Both the position numbers and the translations under genes were made by a program. Below are positions 1,901 to 42,590 of a stretch of DNA of 42,590 nucleotides, piece by piece. The stretch covers positions 1 through 42,590 of the IMG/VR virus record IMGVR_UViG_3300045953_000260; one strand, given 5' to 3'. Positions within the stretch are counted from its first letter, which is position 1, and each line of letters opens with the position of its first letter. Source of the stretch: a virus. The notes under the pieces are model-generated. The model was not told where the DNA came from, ran no database searches, and saw only the letters and a list, made by a program, of their open reading frames with translations.

Positions 1901-1929
1901 CAAAAACCAGCGGGAAGCGCTTCCCCCTG
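1901..1929 (-). terminator. Intrinsic terminator of the leftward operon
   Basis: Read on the minus strand, 1929-1908 forms a hairpin: outer CAG/CTG, one G-G mismatch, then GGGAA/TTCCC around a GCGC loop. It is followed directly by GTTTTTG (1907-1901). The GGGAAGCGCTTCCC palindrome is at 1912-1925. It lies about 70 bases past the last leftward stop and faces the end of the rightward late genes, so it should prevent read-through between converging operons. Confidence 0.6.
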
Positions 1930-1932
1930 AAA

Positions 1933-1974
1933 CTGGGGGTCTGGGGGTCGCTGGTTCGAATCCAGTCGCCCCGA
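1933..1974 (+). other. attP: attP core: 3' half of a tRNA-Pro(GGG) gene
   Basis: The sequence parses as a tRNA 3' half. Anticodon loop CTGGGGG (1933-1939, anticodon GGG), 3' anticodon stem TCTGG, variable loop GGGTC, T stem and loop GCTGG-TTCGAAT-CCAGT (1950-1966), acceptor strand CGCCCCG and discriminator A at 1974. The 5' anticodon stem needed (CCAGA) is absent upstream, so no complete tRNA is present. A tRNA 3' half next to an integrase is the classic attP layout; integration would rebuild the host tRNA-Pro gene. The exact crossover cannot be placed without a lysogen. Confidence 0.8.
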
Positions 1975-1995: not shown

Positions 1996-2442
1996 CTACG
2001 TTTTCTGTCCGGTCGGTTCCGAGCCCTCCGAGGCTCCGCCACGGTCCGCGCCACGGTTCAGCGCGTCGGTGTACTTCTCGTTGAAGCGATCGGTTGCGTC
2101 GCTGAGTACCTCGGTGTGCGCCAGGATGGCGTCTTGCAGTTCTTCCGCGGCCTCCACTATGCCGCGCAGTTGCGCGTTTTCTCTCCGCAGATTGACGAGC
2201 TCGGCTTCTTCGACCTGCACGAGCCGCGCCGGCTCCCGCTCGAGCTCCTGCACGACGCCTTCCCAATCGGGAAGCCCAAGGCGCCGCCGCAACTGCTCGT
2301 ACCCCCTCCGCAGCTTGACGAGCTCGTCGCACGCCTCCTCCAAATCGCCGAGGTGGAAGTGCGCCATGGAATCGCCGGCGCGCCGCGCGGCGATGTAGGC
2401 CCGCAACCGGTCGACCATGCCGTCGTCTTGCTCCTCGCTCAT
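1996..2442 (-). CDS. Coiled-coil protein downstream of integrase
   Basis: Protein of 148 residues. I chose the ATG at 2442, which overlaps the integrase stop as ATGA; an ATG nine bases earlier is possible. The sequence is strongly charged and helical, with long heptad-like stretches (residues about 28-60 and 75-125) and no cysteines or hydrophobic segment. It is the last gene of the leftward operon, and its 3' end contains the right-hand pair of arm-type repeats, so coding and attachment-site DNA overlap. I do not recognise the family. A structural or accessory role in integration or excision is only suggested by position. Confidence 0.7.
   Translation of the reverse strand: MSEEQDDGMVDRLRAYIAARRAGDSMAHFHLGDLEEACDELVKLRRGYEQLRRRLGLPDWEGVVQELEREPARLVQVEEAELVNLRRENAQLRGIVEAAEELQDAILAHTEVLSDATDRFNEKYTDALNRGADRGGASEGSEPTGQKT
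2038..2059. repeat. Paired GCCACGGTYC repeat, candidate integrase arm site (right)
   Basis: GCCACGGTCC at 2038-2047 and GCCACGGTTC at 2050-2059, in the same orientation as the left pair. The copies at 1843 and 2050 match over 12 bases (GCCACGGTTCAG). The pair lies 64-85 bp beyond the attP core, inside the 3' end of the coiled-coil gene. Confidence 0.55.
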
Positions 2443-3515
2443 GCCTTCCATCCCTTCTTCCTCGCCTCGACGCCAGCCGGCCCGATCCGGGGCGCGAGCG
2501 ACACGGCGCCCCGCGCTCGCTCAACCTGCTCGGGCAGCAGGTGCGCATACATCGCCGTGACCCGCTCCTGCGACTGCCCGAGCATCCGGCCGAGCAGGTA
2601 GAGGTCCGGCGTACTCGCCAGGAAGTGCGTCGCGAACGTGTGCCGGCTTTTGTGCGGCCCGCCGGCGAGCTCGGCGGCGCGCACGACGGCCGCGAAGCGC
2701 TTCTTCGGAAAGCTCTCGTAGCGGCGCTTCGACCGCGTCGGGAAGACCCACTCGCACGGGCGTTTCGCTCGAGCGAGGAACGGGAGCAGTGCATCCGAGA
2801 TCGGCACCTCGCGCGGCTCGCCGCTCTTCGTGTCGAAGTCGTCCTCGTCTTCGTCCGGCCGCGGCCAGATCCGCACGAGCCGGCGCTTCACATCGACCTC
2901 GCTCCATCGAAGGCAGATCGCCTCGGTCTTCCGGCAGCCCGTGTTCAGCAAGAAGACGAGCAACGGGAGCAGGCCGGGATCCTCCTTCTCGCATGCGAGG
3001 TAGAGGCGTTCGACCTCCGCACCCGTCCAGGCCTCGGCGTGCCGGCGCTTCGAGGGCGCACGGTACTTCCGGATCGCTGGCGAGGCGCACGGGATCCCGA
3101 GGCGCCGTGCGTGCGAGAGGATCGCCGAGAGGGCCATCAGCTCCCGATTCACTGTGCGCTTCGCGACCTCGCGCGCCCGTCGCGCGCGGTACGTCTCGAC
3201 CAAGTCGGTCGTGATCGCCGTGAGCTTCATCGCGCCGAACGCCTCGGCGAGCTCGGCGATCTCGTACTTCCGGTTCGCCCAGGTCGTCTTGCGGAGCTCA
3301 GCTTCCGCGTGGATCCGGTAGCGGCCGGTTGAGAAGTCGGAGAACGTCGGCGCGACGCGTACCTTTGACGGCGCCGCGGCGTCGAGCTCGAGCTTCTTCA
3401 GCGTCTCGTACGCCTCGGCTTCCTTCCGCGTGCCGTTCACGATCCACTCGTGCCGCACGCCCCGATGCCAGAGCACCACCCGATACTTCTTCGGACCCCG
3501 CTTGTAGATCGCCAT
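2439..3515 (-). CDS. int: Tyrosine integrase
   Basis: Site-specific recombinase of 358 residues that would integrate the phage at a host tRNA-Pro gene. It has an N-terminal arm-binding region (1-60), a SAM-like core-binding domain (about 60-150) and a C-terminal catalytic domain. Catalytic residues are visible: R195 in NTGCRKTE, K230, H288 and R291 in HKSRHTFATHF, and nucleophile Y323 in MYAHL. The usual third His/Trp of the LGH box is Gln here (LGQ, Q314), which is unusual. Start ATG 3515 follows GAGG. It overlaps the excisionase-like gene by about 218 bp in another frame, and attP lies downstream. Confidence 0.95.
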   Translation of the reverse strand: MAIYKRGPKKYRVVLWHRGVRHEWIVNGTRKEAEAYETLKKLELDAAAPSKVRVAPTFSDFSTGRYRIHAEAELRKTTWANRKYEIAELAEAFGAMKLTAITTDLVETYRARRAREVAKRTVNRELMALSAILSHARRLGIPCASPAIRKYRAPSKRRHAEAWTGAEVERLYLACEKEDPGLLPLLVFLLNTGCRKTEAICLRWSEVDVKRRLVRIWPRPDEDEDDFDTKSGEPREVPISDALLPFLARAKRPCEWVFPTRSKRRYESFPKKRFAAVVRAAELAGGPHKSRHTFATHFLASTPDLYLLGRMLGQSQERVTAMYAHLLPEQVERARGAVSLAPRIGPAGVEARKKGWKA

Positions 3516-3970: not shown

Positions 3971-4355
3971 CGGTGGCTCCTCGGTCCCGGATGGCGCGGA
4001 GGGCGCTGGCGCAGTCAGCAGCACCCTGGCCTCGGCCCATCAGAGTCCACTTGTCTGCGGTTTGGTCGCACACCGCGATCGCCTCTTCCCATGTCGCGCG
4101 CCTGGTCACGGCCATCGCGACGCGAAGATCCTTCGCCTCGTCTCGCGGCGCCCGGCTGACGTCGCGTTCGCTCGCCGCCTCGAGTTCGGCGAGCTGATAG
4201 CGCGCGTCGTCCCGCTCTCGCTCCGCGCGGTCGAGCGCGGCGAGGAGGACGCGCATGTTGACGCACTCGGCACACTCGCAGCGTGCAGAGGGCGTGTCGC
4301 GACGGAAGGCGTCGCGTGTCTCGCGCACCCTGCGATCGATTTCGTCGTCGGTCAT
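3963..4355 (-). CDS. Hypothetical protein with CxxC pair and coiled coil
   Basis: Protein of 130 residues starting at ATG 4355, an ATGA overlap with the upstream stop. It has C-E-C-A-E-C near residue 26 and a following helical, Arg/Glu-rich coiled-coil stretch (about 33-65). The C-terminal third is Ala/Trp-rich with A-T-W-E-E-A-I-A-V-C. It ends 5 bases into the next gene. No recognised domain; a role in the early leftward operon is all that context gives. Confidence 0.65.
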   Translation of the reverse strand: MTDDEIDRRVRETRDAFRRDTPSARCECAECVNMRVLLAALDRAERERDDARYQLAELEAASERDVSRAPRDEAKDLRVAMAVTRRATWEEAIAVCDQTADKWTLMGRGQGAADCASALRAIRDRGATGE

Positions 4356-4585
4356 GACGCCGCTTTCCACGACTCGGCACGCACCACGGTGCCAGTGCTC
4401 TCGTCGACGAGTTCGACGCGGCCGTAGAGCTTCACCGGGCGATTGCGCGGCGTTGCTGGGACGAGAACCTCGACCCATCCCTCGCCGGGGCTCGCGCGCG
4501 AGACGCTGCCTTCGACGCGTACGCCGTCGAGGTACGCGACGAGACCGGCGCTCGACTGCGCGTGCATGTCGATCGGCTCACGCAT
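4352..4585 (-). CDS. Small hypothetical protein
   Basis: Protein of 77 residues from ATG 4585, behind GGAGGGCGGC. The sequence is beta-type (L-V-A-Y-L-D-G-V-R-V-E-G, V-E-V-L-V-P, V-K-L-Y-G-R-V-E-L-V) and suggests a small barrel-like fold. It lacks cysteines and membrane segments. Its start region shares an exact 17-bp sequence with the start of queC, so it marks one edge of the queC-dpdA2 cassette. Function unknown. Confidence 0.6.
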   Translation of the reverse strand: MREPIDMHAQSSAGLVAYLDGVRVEGSVSRASPGEGWVEVLVPATPRNRPVKLYGRVELVDESTGTVVRAESWKAAS

Positions 4586-5192
4586 GCCGCCCTCCGAACA
4601 AGTCGCCTTGCCGCCGAGCTCGATCGAGCCTGCCGATGTTGCGGGCGAACCGCGTGACGCTCGAGCCGTCGAACGAGTCCGCGCCGGCCTCGGCGCACAA
4701 TCGAATGCGCCGCACGGTGTTCACGCGGCCGACGTGGTAGTAGAGCCCGCGCGCGCGACACCACCGGCCCCACCGCACGAGGTTCGCGAGCTTCCACTCT
4801 GTCGAGCCGCCCATGAAGATCCCGACGCGCGGTCCAACGAGACCGTCGACATCGTCGGCGCACATGCCGTCCTGGACCGAGACGAGGACGAGACGAGCGT
4901 CTACGAGCCTCGGCAGCCACGCGCGGGTGAGCTCGAGCGACGCGGTGGCATCGGCCACGACGTCCGGCGCGATCACGAAGTCGGCGGCCGCGCCGAGCCG
5001 CGCGTAGGCGCGTTCAAAAGCGAGCTCGTCGAAGCTCTCGCCGCGTTGGTGTGCCGTCCATGCGCCGTTGTCGAGCGCGTACGCAAATCCCTCGGCGCGC
5101 AGCACGCCGCGCGCGCTCACCATCAACCGCCAGCCGGCGCGCCGCAGCGCTTCGAGGTTTCGGCGCGTGCCGGTCCGCGAGGCGTACGCCAT
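4578..5192 (-). CDS. dpdA2: DpdA2-like DNA 7-deazaguanine transglycosylase
   Basis: Protein of 204 residues; ATG 5192 overlaps the queC stop (TGATG). It looks like the short phage branch of the tRNA-guanine-transglycosylase superfamily that exchanges guanine in DNA for a 7-deazaguanine base. Visible elements: A-Y-A-L-D-N-G-A-W (D41), I-A-P-D-V-V (D77), V-G-I-F-M-G-G-S-T-E-W-K, H-V-G-R-V-N and G-A-D-S-F-D-G-S-S (D172, D175), the expected spacing for a TIM-barrel enzyme with acidic active-site residues. Genetic linkage to queC, which makes preQ0, strongly supports the assignment. Predicted product in DNA: dPreQ0. Family membership is from motif recall, not a search. Confidence 0.8.
   Translation of the reverse strand: MAYASRTGTRRNLEALRRAGWRLMVSARGVLRAEGFAYALDNGAWTAHQRGESFDELAFERAYARLGAAADFVIAPDVVADATASLELTRAWLPRLVDARLVLVSVQDGMCADDVDGLVGPRVGIFMGGSTEWKLANLVRWGRWCRARGLYYHVGRVNTVRRIRLCAEAGADSFDGSSVTRFARNIGRLDRARRQGDLFGGRHA
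4581..4597. repeat. 17-bp direct repeat at the queC-dpdA2 cassette edge (left copy)
   Basis: CGCATGCCGCCCTCCGA is identical at 4581-4597 and 5838-5854. Each copy covers the end of one gene (both encode a C-terminal G-G-R-H-A), the ribosome site and the first codons (M-R) of the next. The pair brackets queC and dpdA2 exactly. Confidence 0.8.
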
Positions 5193-5842
5193 CACGGCAC
5201 CCCCAGATCGCGAACGCCGGCCTCCGCGAATCCGCGCGCCCGATGCTCGCACGCGAGGCAGCGGCCGCACGGGGTCGGCGAGCGCGCACCGGCATCCTGC
5301 GGGTCGTAGCAGCTCCACGACCTCGCGACGGCTTGCTCGCAAGCTTCGCCGAGCTCGCGCATGAGTGCGATCGCGGCTGCCTTCGAGCGGTGGACGAGCG
5401 GAGCGTCGATCGCGAACGGTACGCCGAGGCCGAGCGACAGCGCGCGCTCGGCGACTCGGAGGTACTGCGGGCGGCAGTCGGGGAAGCGCTCCGCGTCGTC
5501 CTGGCAGCAGCCGATCACGACGCGGTCCGCGCCGTACGAAAGCGCGCGCGCCGCCGCAAGCGTCAGGAGGATCGTGTTGCGGCCCGGAACGACGACGCGG
5601 TCATGGTCGAGCGCGCCGCCGCGCGTGAGGCTCGTGCCTGTCCACGGAAGCAGAGCCTCGACACGTACGACCGGGACCCCAGCTCTCGCCGCGATCACGC
5701 TCGCCCGCACGAGCTCGATTCGGTGGCGCTGGCCGTAGTCGATCGCGAGCGCCGCGACCTCGCCGCGGCCGTGCTCGCGAAGCGCCCAATGCAGCGCGAT
5801 CGCCGAGTCCATGCCGCCGGAGAGCAGCACGACGCTACGCAT
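5192..5842 (-). CDS. queC: QueC, 7-cyano-7-deazaguanine (preQ0) synthase
   Basis: Protein of 216 residues that converts 7-carboxy-7-deazaguanine to preQ0 using ATP and ammonia. The PP-loop S-G-G-M-D-S is at 8-13, V-P-G-R-N at 85-89, and four zinc-binding cysteines lie at C178, C192, C195 and C198 (CxxCxxC at the end). Length and motif order match cellular QueC. The start ATG 5842 has a GGAGGG site and overlaps the upstream gene end. FolE, QueD and QueE are not in this genome, so the precursor must come from the host. Together with the DpdA2-like gene it should feed DNA, not tRNA, modification. Confidence 0.93.
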   Translation of the reverse strand: MRSVVLLSGGMDSAIALHWALREHGRGEVAALAIDYGQRHRIELVRASVIAARAGVPVVRVEALLPWTGTSLTRGGALDHDRVVVPGRNTILLTLAAARALSYGADRVVIGCCQDDAERFPDCRPQYLRVAERALSLGLGVPFAIDAPLVHRSKAAAIALMRELGEACEQAVARSWSCYDPQDAGARSPTPCGRCLACEHRARGFAEAGVRDLGVP

Positions 5843-6623
5843 GCCGCCCTCCGAGGAACAGCGAGCTGCCCGCGAAGAGCTCGCGGCCGCGCTTCTCGGC
5901 CAGGCCGTTCGTCGTCAGGTTCCCGAGGTAGGTCGAGAACGTTCCGCTGTCCGGCGAGATGCCGCACCGCCGCCCGAGCTCGTCGCGCTCGCGCTGCATC
6001 TCGGCGAGCGCGGCGAAGCCGTCGCCGATCGTCGCCGGCGGATCGATCTCGAGCGGCGCGCTTTCCAGCTTTCGCGTCGGCGGCTGCGTCGGCTGCCCCG
6101 GGTACGCCGGCACGAGCGGCCGCGACTCAAGTGCATCGAGCCGGCGCTCGTGCGTGGCGATCAGCGATTCGTGGGCGCCTCGGAAGATGTTCAGCGCATC
6201 GACTTCGGCGCACGTCGCAGCGACGCGCGCCGGGATCGAGGCGAGCGTGGTCGCGATGTCGAGCACCGCCTCCTGGCCCTGCGCCATCTGCGCTTCGAGC
6301 GCGCCGACGCGTGCGCCGAGATCGTCGGACGCCCGCACCTCTTCGGCAGGCCGCGGCTCGAGGCCATGCGCGCGGCACACGGCGACGGCGTGCTTGACCG
6401 TGCTCGGGCCATCGTTGAGGGCGGACACGATGCGCTCGGCGAGAAGGCGTCCGAGCGCCATCGCAGCTGCGCGCTCGACCTCGTCGCGCAGCGAATGAAT
6501 GCGCGGTCGGACGCCGATGTGCGGCGCGATGTCGACGTCGCACGTGATCGCGTAGTCGCCCTCGGACGGACGCCATTTTGCGGACCACACCGTGGGACCG
6601 TCGGTCTCCGCTGGCGCGTTCAT
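5835..6623 (-). CDS. Hypothetical protein with coiled coil and winged-helix-like C-terminus
   Basis: Protein of 262 residues; ATG 6623 overlaps the recT stop (ATGA). The N-terminal part (1-90) is mixed, with I-T-C-D-V-D-I-A-P-H-I-G and an Ala/Arg helix; the middle (about 90-150) is a likely coiled coil. The C-terminal region contains S-G-T-F-S-T-Y-L-G-N-L-T-T-N-G-L-A-E-K-R-G, which resembles the recognition helix and wing of winged-helix proteins. It sits between RecT and QueC. It may assist recombination or regulate, but I do not recognise a family. Confidence 0.65.
   Translation of the reverse strand: MNAPAETDGPTVWSAKWRPSEGDYAITCDVDIAPHIGVRPRIHSLRDEVERAAAMALGRLLAERIVSALNDGPSTVKHAVAVCRAHGLEPRPAEEVRASDDLGARVGALEAQMAQGQEAVLDIATTLASIPARVAATCAEVDALNIFRGAHESLIATHERRLDALESRPLVPAYPGQPTQPPTRKLESAPLEIDPPATIGDGFAALAEMQRERDELGRRCGISPDSGTFSTYLGNLTTNGLAEKRGRELFAGSSLFLGGRHA
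5838..5854. repeat. 17-bp direct repeat at the queC-dpdA2 cassette edge (right copy)
   Basis: Exact match to 4581-4597, at the start of queC. It is followed by GGAACA where the other copy has ACA, so similarity extends slightly beyond the exact block. Confidence 0.8.
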
Positions 6624-7456
6624 CCGACGCCCTCGCCTTCGATGACCTCGCACGTCTCTTCGTCGACGATCTCCGTCGGCGCGCCCAGCCGATCGAGCAC
6701 CTCGGCGGCGACGCCGTCGGTCACGGTGGCGATGTGCCGGCCGCGCTCGCCGGCGTCGTCGAGCGCTTCGGCGCTCGCCATCTCCGCGCTCTTCGGCAGG
6801 TACGGCCAAAGCGCACGGATCGCCGTCTTGCGCATCATCGCGATCGTGTCGGTCACCCACGGGCCGGCGTTCTTCGCCATCGAGCGCTTCCGTCGTGCCT
6901 CGACCTGCTCGCGCGTCAGCACCTCGAAGATCGGATCGGCATCGCGGATGCGCGCGACGGCGTAGACGTGCGTCACGAGCTCGGGGTCGACGCGCGGGCC
7001 GCCCGCGGGCACGTGGTGGATCTTCGGATCGGTTCCGAGCGACCACGTGAACGAGTCCCCCTCGAAGACGGGGAAGGCGTAGCAGCTCGTCACGAGGCCG
7101 CTGCGACGTGCGAGGTCGAGGTAGCCTTGGTAGCCGATCATGATCGTTGTCTCGGTGCGGCCCGTGCGTTTGTTGTCGCGCGGGATCAGCCACGCGAGGC
7201 CGAGCGGCGTGGACGGCTCGAGCCCGAGCTGCGCGAGCGCGAGCACGCTGCCGATGAAGCTCACCGCATCCGACTGCGCTAGCTTCGGCACGGTTCGGAT
7301 CGCTGTCGTGCAGATCCGCGCCATGCGCTCGGGCGACACGTGCTTCGGCACCGCTCGCGCGATCTCGCTCTTCATGTCGCCGACGAGCTTCACGAGCGAG
7401 TCGCCCGGTTTGCTGCTCTTCACGATCTTCCCGTTGTCGTTCGTCTGCACCGTCAT
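6620..7456 (-). CDS. recT: RecT-family single-strand annealing protein
   Basis: Protein of 278 residues; ATG 7456 overlaps the nuclease stop (ATGA). It has the RecT core: V-L-A-L-A-Q-L-G-L-E-P near residue 65, I-G-Y-Q-G-Y-L-D-L-A-R-R-S-G, and the basic W-V-T-D-T-I-A-M-M-R-K-T-A-I-R block with R-A-L-W-P-Y-L-P. RecT anneals complementary single strands and works with a 5'-3' exonuclease, which is encoded just upstream. The acidic tail (E-T-C-E-V-I-E-G-E-G) is typical of the region that binds SSB or partners. It would serve phage recombination and circular-genome replication. Confidence 0.93.
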   Translation of the reverse strand: MTVQTNDNGKIVKSSKPGDSLVKLVGDMKSEIARAVPKHVSPERMARICTTAIRTVPKLAQSDAVSFIGSVLALAQLGLEPSTPLGLAWLIPRDNKRTGRTETTIMIGYQGYLDLARRSGLVTSCYAFPVFEGDSFTWSLGTDPKIHHVPAGGPRVDPELVTHVYAVARIRDADPIFEVLTREQVEARRKRSMAKNAGPWVTDTIAMMRKTAIRALWPYLPKSAEMASAEALDDAGERGRHIATVTDGVAAEVLDRLGAPTEIVDEETCEVIEGEGVG

Positions 7457-8373
7457 GCTTCGGTCCTTTCCTTCGCAGCCTTGCGCCGCAGCGATCGCCG
7501 GCCGCGCTTGTCCGCGCGGAGCGAATAGGTCACGTGGTTCGGCAGCACCGCGTAGGAGTGCCGCCCGATCGCGCCGCGAAGCGCGTCGTCGATCTGCTCG
7601 AGCCGCGCGTCGATCTCGCGGCGCTTCTCGGCCAGCCCGACGCGCTCTTCGTCGGCCTCGATCCATTCGCCGTCGAGCTCGACCGTGCTGCCCTCGTCGC
7701 GCGGGTAGACCGCCGAGAGTGACTTCGTGTCGAGTGGGCCGGGCGGGATCTGGCCAGCCTCGATGCGCGCCCAGAAGCGCCGGCCGGCCATGCGCAGCCG
7801 CGTGATCGCGTCCTCGTCGCGGACGACGTCATCCCACACGAGGCGGTGGACACCGAGCAGGCACGCGATCGACGCGCACTGCGCACCGGTCACGCACATC
7901 TGAGCTTGTAGCTGCCACCAGTACGACCGCGGGCAGCCGTGCTCCCAGCTGTCCGCGCGCCAGATCTCCGCCGTCTTCAGCTCGAGCGGGATCGTCCCGT
8001 GCACCGGGTGCGACGTCCACGCGTCGAGCGTCGCGAACAGCCAAGGCTCCTCGACCGACCGCAGCAGCGAGCCGGCCCGCCACGACCTGCGGTCCGCGTA
8101 CCGCTCCGATGCGTACGCCGACAGGATCGTCGGCTCGTGCCACAGTCCCCATTCGAGATGCTCCGCGGCATCGCCGTCGTCAACGTCGTCCTCGACGTCG
8201 AGCAGCGCGCGCTTCTCCGTCCAGAGCCGCGCCGGTGTCTTCCAGCGCGACTCACCGACGATGATCGCCGCTTCGCTCGCACCAACGCCGGTGCGGCGAA
8301 TGCGCAGCCAGGCCTGGCGGTCTGCGCTGTCGGCTACGACTTCGTAGCGTTGATGCACGGTGTCCGTTTGCAT
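7453..8373 (-). CDS. YqaJ/lambda-Exo-like recombinase exonuclease
   Basis: Protein of 306 residues of the PD-(D/E)xK viral recombinase family. Visible: G-A-S-E-A-A-I-I-V-G (31-40), W-G-L-W-H-E-P (E80), T-L-D-A-W (D117), L-E-L-K-T (E131, K133) and W-W-Q-L-Q-A-Q-M (Q154). These are the metal-binding and catalytic positions of YqaJ enzymes. It would resect double-strand ends for the neighbouring RecT. The C-terminal ~70 residues are charged and helical. The gap to the upstream gene is only 3 bases. Confidence 0.92.
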   Translation of the reverse strand: MQTDTVHQRYEVVADSADRQAWLRIRRTGVGASEAAIIVGESRWKTPARLWTEKRALLDVEDDVDDGDAAEHLEWGLWHEPTILSAYASERYADRRSWRAGSLLRSVEEPWLFATLDAWTSHPVHGTIPLELKTAEIWRADSWEHGCPRSYWWQLQAQMCVTGAQCASIACLLGVHRLVWDDVVRDEDAITRLRMAGRRFWARIEAGQIPPGPLDTKSLSAVYPRDEGSTVELDGEWIEADEERVGLAEKRREIDARLEQIDDALRGAIGRHSYAVLPNHVTYSLRADKRGRRSLRRKAAKERTEA

Positions 8374-8376
8374 GGC

Positions 8377-9213
8377 TCAGATGTGGCAGTCCACGACGGT
8401 TAGCCGCGTGTCGTCTGGCAGAGCCGCGTACGACGCTTCCCACTGGGAACACCAGTCGTCTTCGCCCATCGCATCCGCAACGCACGCGAACATCAGCATG
8501 CGGCCCTTCTCGTGCCACACGCCGTCCGGCGTTACGTAAGCGAATGGCGTTACGATCGCGCGACGACGACGCGCGACGTACGCCTCAACGTCATAGCCGT
8601 AGTCGAGAGGCGGATCGGAATCGAACGCTTCCCACTGATCAACGCTCTTGCACAGCGCTTTCCACTCGACGATCTGGATCTGGGCCGCGTACGCGGCGCG
8701 AGCCGCGTCGATGTCGTGGGGGTACCGCTCACGCATCCCTGGCCACGAGAGTGGTCGTGGCACGGCCGCGTGCATGTCGAGCGCCAGCTGCCATCGTGCA
8801 AAGCGTGCGCGCGCAGTGATCTCCTCCGCGTCGCGCTTGCGTGCCCAATCGATCTCGGACTTGAGCGCTGTGTTCCTGTCGCCGGTCTTCGTGGGGAAGT
8901 ATCCTGCCCACCGTCCACCAACCGTCCACCAATCCCATTTCGCGTTCGGGTTCTCCATGTATCCGAAGCGCTGTTCGCCGTCGACGACCGGGTGTGCGCG
9001 ATAGCCGTGGTAGTCCACCGCATACGCTGCGATGCCGCCGACGTATTCAGCGCGCTCGTCGGCGTCCAAGCCGGCCCACCCATCGACGACGTCGGCCGTC
9101 TGATCGTGGAACGACAGAAACCGCTCCGGGCAGTCGCCCATGTTGTTTTCCTGGTACGGCGCGAGCGCTCGCTCGATCTCCGATCCGATCACGACAACCG
9201 CAAAGTGGCTCAT
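8377..9213 (-). CDS. Conserved phage protein of the MSHF...WDWW-GGRW type
   Basis: Protein of 278 residues with a very strong ribosome site (AAGGGAGGAGGAG before ATG 9213). It begins M-S-H-F-A-V-V-V-I-G and carries N-P-N-A-K-W-D-W-W-T-V-G-G-R-W, a signature shared by an uncharacterised family found in many phage genomes. A Trp-rich centre and an acidic C-terminus are visible, with no membrane segment. Its strong site suggests high expression in the leftward operon. Function unknown. Confidence 0.75.
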   Translation of the reverse strand: MSHFAVVVIGSEIERALAPYQENNMGDCPERFLSFHDQTADVVDGWAGLDADERAEYVGGIAAYAVDYHGYRAHPVVDGEQRFGYMENPNAKWDWWTVGGRWAGYFPTKTGDRNTALKSEIDWARKRDAEEITARARFARWQLALDMHAAVPRPLSWPGMRERYPHDIDAARAAYAAQIQIVEWKALCKSVDQWEAFDSDPPLDYGYDVEAYVARRRRAIVTPFAYVTPDGVWHEKGRMLMFACVADAMGEDDWCSQWEASYAALPDDTRLTVVDCHI

Positions 9214-9497
9214 CTCCTCCTCCCTTCGCCATCGAGATCTTCGCGGGCCCACATGACCGTCAACTCCCCGCCGACCTCGTGCCGCGTCACGTCCTCGACA
9301 AGTGCCGAACGAAGCACCGGGACCGGCAGCGCGTGCCGACGCGCGCGTGCGATGAGCTCCGCGTGCGGCAGCGCCGCGAGCTCGGCGCGGCGGCTGTTGA
9401 GAGTACGCTCGTACTCGGCGGCCCGCTCGAGCGCGGAGCGTGTGCTGCGCGCGGGCATGCTGGCCATGTGGGCAACGACCTTGGCGAGTTGGTTCAC
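9210..9497 (-). CDS. Hypothetical small protein
   Basis: Protein of 95 residues from GTG 9497 (GGAGGAG seven bases upstream), overlapping the next gene as ATGA and the previous as GTGA. It is rich in Ala, Arg and Leu and mostly helical (residues about 10-60), with a short beta end (G-G-E-L-T-V-M-W). No known motif. Tight coupling on both sides shows it is a real operon member. Confidence 0.65.
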   Translation of the reverse strand: MNQLAKVVAHMASMPARSTRSALERAAEYERTLNSRRAELAALPHAELIARARRHALPVPVLRSALVEDVTRHEVGGELTVMWAREDLDGEGRRR

Positions 9498-10042
9498 GTT
9501 TGTTCTCCTCCTGTGAGCCGCGCGGCAAGTGCGCATAGGTGTCGGGCCTCGCGCTGCGCAGCCGGCAGGCGTTCGCGCGAATACCGGGCCGCGGCCTCGA
9601 CGGCGATCGCGTGCTCTTCGAGGGCACCGGCAACGACGCGCAGCACGCGCTCGGCGAACGCTGGCGAGCAGCCGACGACGTCGCGCACGTGCCCGATCAC
9701 ATCGGCGCCAGCCGGCGGGCACGTGAGCGTCCGGGCGAGCCGGCGCGCGCGGTCATCGGCGCCGATGATCCCGGTCCGCACGAGGAGCAGGCGGAGCTCC
9801 GACTGCACGCGCTCGACCGCGTACGTGCTGACGGGCAGCGCGATCGACACCGGCTCGCGCCGGACCGCGATCGTGTGCTCGCCACGGCATTGCGGGCATT
9901 CATCGGTCGGATGCGCCGCGCAGCGTGGGCACACGAGATCCGAGGCCCGAGGAGCGCATCGATCACCCGGCACCTGGGGGAGGGGCGGGCCGGAATCGAT
10001 GCGCTCGTCGGAGCGCGGAGCGACGCGGGCGCGGGCGATCAT
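9494..10042 (-). CDS. Protein with double CxxC zinc finger and helical C-terminus
   Basis: Protein of 182 residues from ATG 10042 (TGATG overlap). A rubredoxin-like zinc site is visible near residues 38-54: V-C-P-R-C ... D-E-C-P-Q-C-R-G. The rest is helical, with L-L-L-V-R-T-G-I-I-G and an Ala/Arg-rich end. It is one of four adjacent Cys-rich small proteins. Nucleic-acid binding or a structural zinc role is possible; no family recognised. Confidence 0.65.
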   Translation of the reverse strand: MIARARVAPRSDERIDSGPPLPQVPGDRCAPRASDLVCPRCAAHPTDECPQCRGEHTIAVRREPVSIALPVSTYAVERVQSELRLLLVRTGIIGADDRARRLARTLTCPPAGADVIGHVRDVVGCSPAFAERVLRVVAGALEEHAIAVEAAARYSRERLPAAQREARHLCALAARLTGGEQT

Positions 10043-21851: not shown

Positions 21852-23093
21852 GTGGGCGTTGTCGTCCCGATCTCCTCGCACGTGACGCGCCCGTCGATGC
21901 GGGCTCGTCCGGTGACCGCACGGCTCGCGGCGATGAAACCGGAGCACCTCGCGGCCATCCTCGCGAGCGCGGAGCGCGGCGAGATCCAGCAATGGGCGGA
22001 CCTGTGCGATCGCATGGTCCAGATCGACGGGCACGTCCGGGCGAACTACGAGACGCGGCTCGCGACGGTGGCGGGCGCGCGCTGGGAGATGCTCGAGGGG
22101 AGGACGGGCGACCCCGCGCGCGACGCGTGGGCGCTGCCGGCGCGCGATTTCTGCGAGAACGTGTTGCGGTCGACGCCTGCCTTCGAGCCGGCGGTGATGG
22201 ATCTGCTCGACGGAATCGGAGTCGGGCTCGGCGTCGTCGAAGTCGACTGGGCGTGGCAGAGCAACGCGTGGGTGCCGATCGATCTGCGCTGGGTGCACCA
22301 ACGACGCTTCCGTTGGGGCGAGCAGTGGGAGCTCCGGCTCCTCGAGACCGGCTACGGCGGTTCGTGCGGCGGCAGGGGCAAGCCCGTTTCGGAGTGGCCG
22401 CGGAAATTCATTGTGCACACCCCGCGAGCTCGAAGCGGGACGCCCGGCGTGAGCGGATGCCTTCGCCCGGTCGCGTGGGACTTCCTGTTCAAGCGCTGGG
22501 CGAAGCAATTCTGGGTGCAAGGGGCTGAGCGCTTCGCATGGCCCTTCATGTACGGCGAAGTGCCGCGCAATGCGCCGCTCGAGGTGCGCGAGAAAATGAA
22601 GAAGGCGCTCGAGGAGATCTCCGCGGACCATTCCGCGGTGCTCGAGGCGGGCGACGCGATCAAGATCCTCGAGAGCGCGATCAAAGACGGGGGCACGTGG
22701 AAGGATTTGGTCGAAGCGCTGAACGGCGACATCTCGAAGTCGATCCTCGGCTCGGTCGACCAAACCGAACCCACAAAGGTCGGCGCGTGGAAGGCGGTCG
22801 AGAGCCGGAAGGGAACGACGGTCGATTCGCGGACCGCGATCGACGAGCGACAGCTGAGTTCGACGCTCGAGTCGACGCTCGTAACGTGGCTCTGCGAATT
22901 CAACACGCACCGTTTCGGCGGAGTCCTCCCGGCGATCCCGAAACCGCGTTGGGTTGTCGCAGAGAAGCGCCGCGAGATCCCCGAGCACCTCGCCGAGGCA
23001 CGCGTCGTCACTCGAAACGAGCTGCGAGCTTCCATTGGTCTCGACCCCATGCCCGGGCCCATCGGAGAAGAGCTCGTGGGTGAAGCGGACTGA
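21852..23093 (+). CDS. Portal protein, DUF935/Mu gp29-like
   Basis: Protein of 413 residues with GTG start 21852. Features of the Mu gp29 portal family: L-A-A-I-L-A-S-A-E-R-G-E near 35, V-R-A-N-Y-E-T-R-L-A-T-V-A-G, W-A-W-Q-S-N-A-W-V-P ... R-R-F-R-W, F-I-V-H-T-P-R, W-D-F-L-F-K-R-W-A ... F-A-W-P-F, and a long C-terminal helical region. The portal forms the dodecameric ring for DNA entry. It is somewhat short for the family. No minor head (gpF/gp30) gene follows it, unlike Mu. Confidence 0.85.
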   Translation: MGVVVPISSHVTRPSMRARPVTARLAAMKPEHLAAILASAERGEIQQWADLCDRMVQIDGHVRANYETRLATVAGARWEMLEGRTGDPARDAWALPARDFCENVLRSTPAFEPAVMDLLDGIGVGLGVVEVDWAWQSNAWVPIDLRWVHQRRFRWGEQWELRLLETGYGGSCGGRGKPVSEWPRKFIVHTPRARSGTPGVSGCLRPVAWDFLFKRWAKQFWVQGAERFAWPFMYGEVPRNAPLEVREKMKKALEEISADHSAVLEAGDAIKILESAIKDGGTWKDLVEALNGDISKSILGSVDQTEPTKVGAWKAVESRKGTTVDSRTAIDERQLSSTLESTLVTWLCEFNTHRFGGVLPAIPKPRWVVAEKRREIPEHLAEARVVTRNELRASIGLDPMPGPIGEELVGEAD

Positions 23094-24876: not shown

Positions 24877-25827
24877 ATGTCGATCATCGATCAGGACATC
24901 ATCGACGCCGCCTCGGCGACCTTCGAGATCAAGTTCCAGGAGGTCTTCGAGCACGACGACGAGACTCCGTCGGTCGCCGATGCGATCGGGGAGATCGTTC
25001 CGACCGAGTCGGAGGAGAATGAAGTTGATCTCCTCGGCGCGATGCCGGTCATGAAGAAGTGGATCGGCCCGAAGGAGATGCAGGTCCAGCGCGCGTATTC
25101 GCAGCGCGTGTTCCTCGAGAAGTACGAGGCGACCTTCGAGCTCCCGCGCATGAAGGTCTCCTACGACAAGCTCGGCTTGATCGGACGACGCATCGATCGC
25201 TTCATGAGTCGTAACCGTTACTGGAAGGAAAAGATCCTCTTCGACTTCCTGGTTACGAACCCGACGGGATACGACGGCGTCGCATTCTTCTCGACGGCGC
25301 ACCCTCACGGCCCCGGCGGAAACCAGAGCAACACGACGACCGCCGCTCTGGCGGTGGGCACGCTCGACACTGCCATTCAGACGATGCAGTCCTTGCGCGA
25401 CGAGAACGGCGAGAACCTCGGCATCTCGCCGACGATCCTCGTAACCGGCCCGAAGCTTCGTAAGACGGCGATCGAACTCACGGGGTCAGACCGAATCGCG
25501 AGCGTGAACGCCGCTGGCGCTCTCGACCCGGGTTCGGCGGCTGTCGCCGCCGCGACGTTCCCGAACTACTTCGTCGGTGGGTTCCTGGATTACTTCATGT
25601 GGCCGCGGCTCGTCGGGACACAGGACGATTGGTGGATGCTCTTCGCGACGACCGCGGACGCGAAGGCGTTCCTCCTCTACGAAGGCCGCGCCGTCGAGGG
25701 CATCCCCCAAACCGACATGAACGGCGAGCACCGATTCATCAACGACATGCTCCGGTGGTCGCTCGAATCGGATCACGTGCCGGCCGCCGGCGCGTGGCAG
25801 GTCGCATACGGCGGCATCGTCGCCTGA
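24877..25827 (+). CDS. Major capsid protein, Mu gpT-like
   Basis: Protein of 316 residues with GGAG before ATG 24877. It carries features of Mu gpT: M-K-K-W-I-G-P-K-E, V-F-L-E-K-Y-E-A-T-F-E-L-P-R, Y-W-K-E-K-I-L-F-D-F-L-V, G-Y-D-G-V-A-F-F-S-T-A-H-P, P-T-I-L-V-T-G-P-K-L-R and a hydrophobic C-terminus. This is the HK97-fold shell subunit. It follows the decoration protein and is expected to be among the most abundant phage products. Confidence 0.9.
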   Translation: MSIIDQDIIDAASATFEIKFQEVFEHDDETPSVADAIGEIVPTESEENEVDLLGAMPVMKKWIGPKEMQVQRAYSQRVFLEKYEATFELPRMKVSYDKLGLIGRRIDRFMSRNRYWKEKILFDFLVTNPTGYDGVAFFSTAHPHGPGGNQSNTTTAALAVGTLDTAIQTMQSLRDENGENLGISPTILVTGPKLRKTAIELTGSDRIASVNAAGALDPGSAAVAAATFPNYFVGGFLDYFMWPRLVGTQDDWWMLFATTADAKAFLLYEGRAVEGIPQTDMNGEHRFINDMLRWSLESDHVPAAGAWQVAYGGIVA

Positions 25828-41976: not shown

Positions 41977-42590
41977 TGCTTTGGGCGCCGCAGAAGGGGG
42001 TGTACCGCATCGAGCACAACCTCGGCGGAGTAGGAACTACAACGCCGGGGACATCGGTCACGACGGGGGCCTCTAGCTCAACAAAGGGAACGCCGGCGGA
42101 GCTCATCGCGAGTACAGCGTTCGATGCGTATTGGGTCACCGTGATCGCAACGAACTACGGTCTCGCGGCCACGACATCGCAGGGATGCCTCGACATCCTG
42201 ATCGGGAGCGCGACGGAGGAGGTTTTGATCCCGAACCTGTTGATGGGGTTCTGCGGAGGCGGAAGCGTTCTCGGAGAGTCCGCGAAGATCTGGGAGTTCC
42301 CCCTGTACATCCCGGCCGGGTCACGTCTCGCCGCGCAAGCCGCAGGCGATCGCACGTCCACCGCGATGCGTGTAGGGATCATCTTGCGCGGAGGCGACGG
42401 CACGCCGCATTTCAGAGTCGGCAGCAAGGTCACCACGTACGGGATCACGACGGTGCCGGCCGGCACCGACGTTACGGAGGGCGCGTCCGGTGCGGAGGGC
42501 TCATGGACGCAGATCGCGTCGTCGACGAGCGAGGATCACTTTGCATTTGTCCCGAGCTATCACCCGACCGACGGCGACACCACGTTGACC
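41976..42590 (+). CDS. 5' part of two-domain fibre/virion-type protein (continues at 1)
   Basis: ATG 41976 overlaps the upstream stop (TGATG). The frame is open to the window end and continues at base 2 after the 127-bp overlap is removed; the full protein is 283 residues with stop at 362-364. The first half contains a Thr/Gly/Ser-rich spacer, then G-S-A-T-E-E (77-82), I-W-E-F-P-L-Y-I-P-A-G-S-R-L (105-118) and V-G-I-I-L-R-G. The second half repeats the plan, so an internal duplication is likely. Role in fibre or virion surface is inferred from neighbours. Confidence 0.7.
   Translation, partial: MLWAPQKGVYRIEHNLGGVGTTTPGTSVTTGASSSTKGTPAELIASTAFDAYWVTVIATNYGLAATTSQGCLDILIGSATEEVLIPNLLMGFCGGGSVLGESAKIWEFPLYIPAGSRLAAQAAGDRTSTAMRVGIILRGGDGTPHFRVGSKVTTYGITTVPAGTDVTEGASGAEGSWTQIASSTSEDHFAFVPSYHPTDGDTTLT
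42464..42590. repeat. 127-bp terminal direct repeat, right copy
   Basis: Identical to bases 1-127. Removing it joins 42463 to 1 and leaves one open frame across the junction. Confidence 0.95.

Follow-up and report, generated by a model that had tools for sequence, protein, structure and literature searches.

Phage DpdA enzymes insert 7-cyano-7-deazaguanine (preQ0) in DNA, where deazaguanines block restriction enzymes (PMC6884629). The phages concerned have been grouped into those with a full pathway, those with DpdA only and those with the pathway but without DpdA (Hutinet 2019); a phage with DpdA only can draw on a host precursor for its modification (PMC8306585). A similar pair of folds serves bacterial immunity: in type IV CBASS the QueC-like protein Cap9 links a deazaguanine to the N-terminus of a protein, and the product is bound by Cap10, which is a remodelled tRNA-guanine transglycosylase (TGT) (PMC11996544, PMC13329287). 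Here we describe a closed phage genome that has only QueC and a transglycosylase and thus fits none of the groups of Hutinet 2019. We consider it quite probable that the two genes form a minimal 7-deazaguanine DNA-modification cassette, giving most likely dPreQ0 from the 7-carboxy-7-deazaguanine (CDG) of the host.

A two-gene unit in a closed phage genome

The window, that is, the whole stretch of 42,590 nucleotides analysed, is the IMG/VR record IMGVR_UViG_3300045953_000260 of an uncultured phage. It ends in an exact direct terminal repeat of 127 bp (1-127 and 42464-42590), and a tail reading frame runs on across the join of the repeat; for these two reasons we take the genome to be closed, at ~42.46 kb. 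The features around the gene pair are as follows.

1926-1974, plus strand: likely attP core, the 3' part of a tRNA-Pro(ggg)-like sequence adjoining the integrase gene (sequence match)
2439-3515, minus strand: tyrosine integrase (PF00589, 72 bits)
4352-4585, minus strand: 77-aa gene directly downstream of the pair, overlapping the end of dpdA by 8 bases (no family found)
4578-5192, minus strand: dpdA, predicted short DpdA-like guanine transglycosylase, 204 aa (phrog_15826, fold, register)
5192-5842, minus strand: queC, predicted preQ0 synthase, 216 aa (PF06508, motifs)
5835-6620, minus strand: 261-aa gene directly upstream of the pair, overlapping the start of queC by 8 bases (no family found)
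6620-7459, minus strand: RecT recombinase of the same early block (PF03837, 126.6 bits)
7453-8373, minus strand: YqaJ exonuclease of the same early block (PF09588, 90.1 bits)

Both queC and the gene of its 204-aa partner are intact frames starting with ATG, and they have one base (5192) in common. The pair lies inside a tightly packed early block of the minus strand, with RecT and YqaJ upstream and the tyrosine integrase downstream; a homologue of the 77-aa downstream gene sits elsewhere in a related phage (L011). The integrase beside the tRNA-Pro-like att sequence supports the earlier description of this phage as temperate, which it probably is. The att sequence has matches in the tRNA-Pro of many Acidobacteriota, with identities of up to 92% across its 49 bases and no exact long match, and no tRNA gene was found in the window; the style of the lipoproteins suggests a host among the Myxococcota. 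Despite its tyrosine integrase, the phage has Mu-like portal and major head proteins (21852-23093 and 24877-25827; PF06074 and PF10124).

Searches of the whole window for FolE, QueD/PTPS and radical-SAM proteins gave no match, which bears out the statement of the first-pass annotation that folE, queD and queE are lacking. Because the genome is closed, this absence is meaningful.

The QueC protein and its partner

The QueC identity, which the first-pass annotation had called certain, holds. The protein scores 159.5 bits (E 1.1e-46) against PF06508, where the Pfam cut-off is 22, and 142.4 bits against the NCBIfam equivalog TIGR00364, just below the cut-off of 150.3; the NCBIfam search also places it far from QatC. 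Its match to the solved QueC 2pg3 (94.7 bits, E 5.3e-26) far exceeds that to Cap9 (22.9 bits, E 4.9e-4). The published signature of canonical QueC consists of SGGxDS, YxQxHxxE, VPxRN, YPDC, CY and the zinc cysteines (PMC13329287), and in the window protein we find SGGMDS (the PP-loop), YGQRHRIE, VPGRN, CY and CGRCLAC. The four-cysteine zinc motif C(x)nCxxCxxC, together with CY, reads CYDPQDAGARSPTPCGRCLAC, its first spacing exceeding the published 8 residues. By motif and score the window QueC is thus canonical, and it would be expected to convert CDG to preQ0. Failure in a queuosine assay need not speak against such a role: the Gat-QueC of phage 9g gave no queuosine rescue of E. coli delta-queC, yet it supplied DpdA (PMC6884629).

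The sole departure from the signature is FPDC for YPDC, and it bears on a reading in which the pair is indeed a DNA cassette but installs another base, such as ADG or CDG, either because QueC is only partly active or because the transglycosylase prefers that base. E. coli QueC with the corresponding change, Y131F, retained part of its activity (PMC13329287), and the DpdA-only phages 7-11 and MED16 carried dADG, not dPreQ0 (PMC8306585). However, the remaining canonical QueC motifs are all present, and FPDC is common to other canonical-type siblings. We regard this reading as unlikely.

The partner is harder to place by sequence. It matches phrog_15826, a family of no known function, at 172 bits, but no Pfam family above the cut-off; sequence searches of Pfam, NCBIfam, PADLOC and the PDB with the partner alone gave nothing useful, and none led directly to TGT or to an experimentally tested DpdA. 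A hit to DUF3151 (E 0.05) was dismissed as chance. The AlphaFold model, built with 25 relatives, is a TIM barrel (pLDDT 91.4, pTM 0.88). Foldseek against the PDB placed human TGT QTRT1 first (E 7.9e-5), with many TGTs and other TIM barrels below it, and predicted DpdA/TGT proteins from other viruses are among the structure matches. The suggested kinship with DpdA and TGT therefore has the best PDB match on its side, and other TIM barrels score close: VIA-align gave Z 15.7 to TGT over 199-201 residues and Z 15.5 to pyruvate kinase, so the fold alone is not decisive.

The register of the active-site residues appears to decide for a TGT-type active site where the fold does not. In a profile alignment with 15 bacterial TGTs, a weak match (P 0.043), partner residues D77, Q107, G128-G129 and D175 fall on active-site residues of TGT, which we take to be D156, Q203, G230-L231 and D280 in Zymomonas numbering. 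By motif position, D41 (in DNGAW) stands at the place of DSGGFQ in TGT. All of these partner residues (D41, D77, Q107, G128-G129, D175) are invariant across the 25 relatives. Against three canonical phage DpdAs, D41, G43, D77, D81 and G128-G129 align as identical, while the conserved His of those proteins is Q107 in the partner. Taking the fold and this register together, we predict that the partner exchanges guanine.

The more specific name given to it earlier, DpdA2, did not survive comparison. The DpdA2 of Vibrio phage nt-1 (YP_008125322) has 464 aa, against 204 here, and neither BLASTP (E 0.46) nor hhalign (probability 0.1) detected any similarity between its sequence and that of the partner, which leaves the label unsupported. 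The two are alike in a distant TGT-like fold, with nt-1 DpdA2 among the viral structure matches at E 2e-4, and nt-1 encodes a full pathway. The partner does lack the conserved His of 9g-type DpdA, as does the nt-1-type DpdA2 family (Hutinet 2019), but the missing His is not diagnostic, since TGT has Gln at this position too. Of the proposed QueC and DpdA2 cassette, the QueC and the TGT-type transglycosylase are therefore supported and the name is not. In a comparison that covered nt-1 DpdA2 and the three canonical phage DpdAs, the partner is best described as belonging to a distinct, short DpdA-like family, phrog_15826.

The central interpretation, in which QueC acts together with a TGT-type transglycosylase on DNA and the host feeds in the precursor, has the support of the fold, the register of catalytic residues, the conserved pairing, an apparent DpdA-QueD fusion and the graded gene contents of relatives (the last three are described below). 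In the proposed mechanism, FolE, QueD and QueE of the host would provide CDG; we look to the host for it because folE, queD and queE are absent from the closed genome, and that the host has these upstream queuosine steps is accordingly a deduction. Phage QueC, to judge by its motifs, would turn host CDG, with ATP and ammonia, into preQ0. The 204-aa TGT-type barrel would then exchange guanine in DNA for preQ0 through a covalent Asp intermediate at D175, leaving most likely dPreQ0 in the phage DNA and protection from restriction enzymes. dPreQ0 is the likely final base. One point against the reading is that a host in which the pathway is complete already has QueC, and there the phage enzyme would not be strictly required; its part would then be to increase or channel the supply, not to close a gap.

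Relatives of the pair

We collected 81 distinct dpdA relatives from IMG/VR, the window included. A queC gene lies near 27 of them, in every case on the strand of dpdA and usually no more than 35 nt away (in L094 it was recognized only by a short partial match), and this consistency argues that the pairing is not due to chance. For the other 54, the majority, no queC was found in the DNA examined, which counts against the cassette reading; most of the records, however, are fragments, in which absences mean little. A scan of viral contigs that started from QueC alone gave no relatives, and the pairs were thus found via dpdA.

Several relatives carry further genes of the pathway. The related phage L011, whose tail protein is 71% identical to that of the window phage, has queC-dpdA, and its dpdA runs on into queD without a break in the frame (L011:739-1947), an apparent DpdA-QueD fusion, although an internal queD start is possible. 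Gene order is queC-queD-dpdA in L098 and queC-dpdA-queD-queE in L087. For L087 the names QueD and QueE come from inspection of the sequences, that of QueE having the support of a weak radical-SAM match. In L021, FolE, QueD, a radical SAM protein and QueC are all present. These graded gene contents connect the short transglycosylase with the making of preQ0 by evidence that does not depend on the window.

The QueC proteins of the relatives are of two types. YxQxHxxE occurs in eight of them, the window included, and most others are shorter and have a Cap9-type motif, [YF]x[QH]x5E. Proteins of this shorter kind with Cap9-like motifs make up the majority of the sibling QueCs (L002, L005, L009, L012, L024, L026, L027 and others), and one sibling scores 54.7 bits to QueC and hardly less, 50.6 bits, to Cap9. 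Such motifs mean that products other than preQ0 are possible in those phages. Tentatively, and with the odds against it, phrog_15826 might be a separate class of DNA guanine-exchange enzyme, recurrently paired either with a canonical QueC that makes preQ0 or with a shortened Cap9-like QueC, for which another deazaguanine may be the end point or the base that is conjugated. In that case the siblings would differ in the base they install, or would target proteins to counter QueC-based immunity.

The short siblings also bear on the idea that the pair carries out protein-directed chemistry as in type IV CBASS, modifying a protein or undoing such a modification. The fold pair is the same as that of Cap9 and Cap10, and Cap10 (9ntn) is among the structure matches of the partner (E 4e-4). 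Against this, the window QueC has YxQxHxxE and 216 aa, not the short Y/FxQ(x)5E form, besides its far better score to QueC than to Cap9; the partner keeps the TGT active-site positions; and QueD and QueE, to which relatives are linked, make the free base. No CD-NTase was found in the two flanking genes, neither of which has a Pfam match, and none was noticed elsewhere in the phage. We consider protein-directed chemistry improbable for the window pair.

At 56 bacterial loci a dpdA relative occurs with no queC in the DNA examined. Among 15 bacterial genomes with such lone relatives, TGT is present in all 15, a strong QueC in 14 and PTPS in 11. That the pair instead acts on tRNA, raising queuosine or preQ0-tRNA during infection with no DNA modification, is very unlikely. 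In its favour, the best match among solved structures is a TGT, Q107 of the partner corresponds to Q203 of TGT and to a His in canonical phage DpdA, and preQ0-gene phages without DpdA have been suggested in the literature to boost tRNA queuosine. Against it, the 204-aa partner is about half the size of a bacterial TGT and lacks its C-terminal zinc-binding part, and hosts of relatives already have TGT, as those 15 genomes do.

Many lone dpdA relatives of Caballeronia and Paraburkholderia (as at L038:8694-10529) are followed by a gene for a ~612-aa protein that looks, by eye, like PAPS reductase. Several species have this gene in pieces; L040 and L044 share a break at residues 77-79, where the two parts lie ~6-7 kb from each other, which suggests a repeated insertion site.

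Some known phages with the short family infect Mycobacterium, for example mycobacteriophage Phegasus (L183:3959-4570). Mycobacterium is reported to lack preQ0 genes (PMC6884629). This counts against the preQ0 reading, and the base or the role may be a different one where the short family occurs without queC.

Comparison with known systems

The DNA-modification reading places the window pair beside the phages with a preQ0 pathway, such as CAjan and Rosebush (FolE, QueD, QueE and QueC plus DpdA; PMC6884629). These likewise combine QueC with a TGT-family DNA transglycosylase and are predicted to make dPreQ0. The window phage differs from them in lacking folE, queD and queE, in having a shorter transglycosylase of a separate family and in encoding an integrase. 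With the DpdA-only phages (Salmonella 7-11, Pantoea MED16 and Mycobacterium Orion) it shares the dependence on the host for the base; those carry no queC, whereas the window phage keeps the last step to preQ0, in a queC that overlaps the transglycosylase gene.

Described phages that infect actinobacteria or Erythrobacter also have short 'DpdA-like' proteins (in Aoka, Sonali gp81, Phegasus and R6L), which have 203-213 aa, are 33-57% identical to the partner and are related to phrog_15826. In the regions inspected, none of these has a queC adjoining the gene, unlike the window. Arthrobacter phage Sonali has both the short DpdA-like gp81 and a canonical DpdA, gp87 (L182:5929-6546 and 8916-9806), with a full preQ0 cluster.

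Cap9 and Cap10 of type IV CBASS resemble the window pair in joining a QueC-like to a TGT-like protein, but their target is a protein and the window QueC is canonical. Canonical and Cap9-like QueC recur as alternatives next to one family of transglycosylase, and phrog_15826 gains a function that can be tested.

The window pair is best described as working like the phage preQ0-DpdA system, with a transglycosylase of a short DpdA-like family and a cassette of two genes. It would be a very small unit for installing deazaguanine in DNA, showing how far such a cassette may be reduced, and it looks like a stripped-down form of a known phage system for evading restriction, with the host doing the earlier steps.
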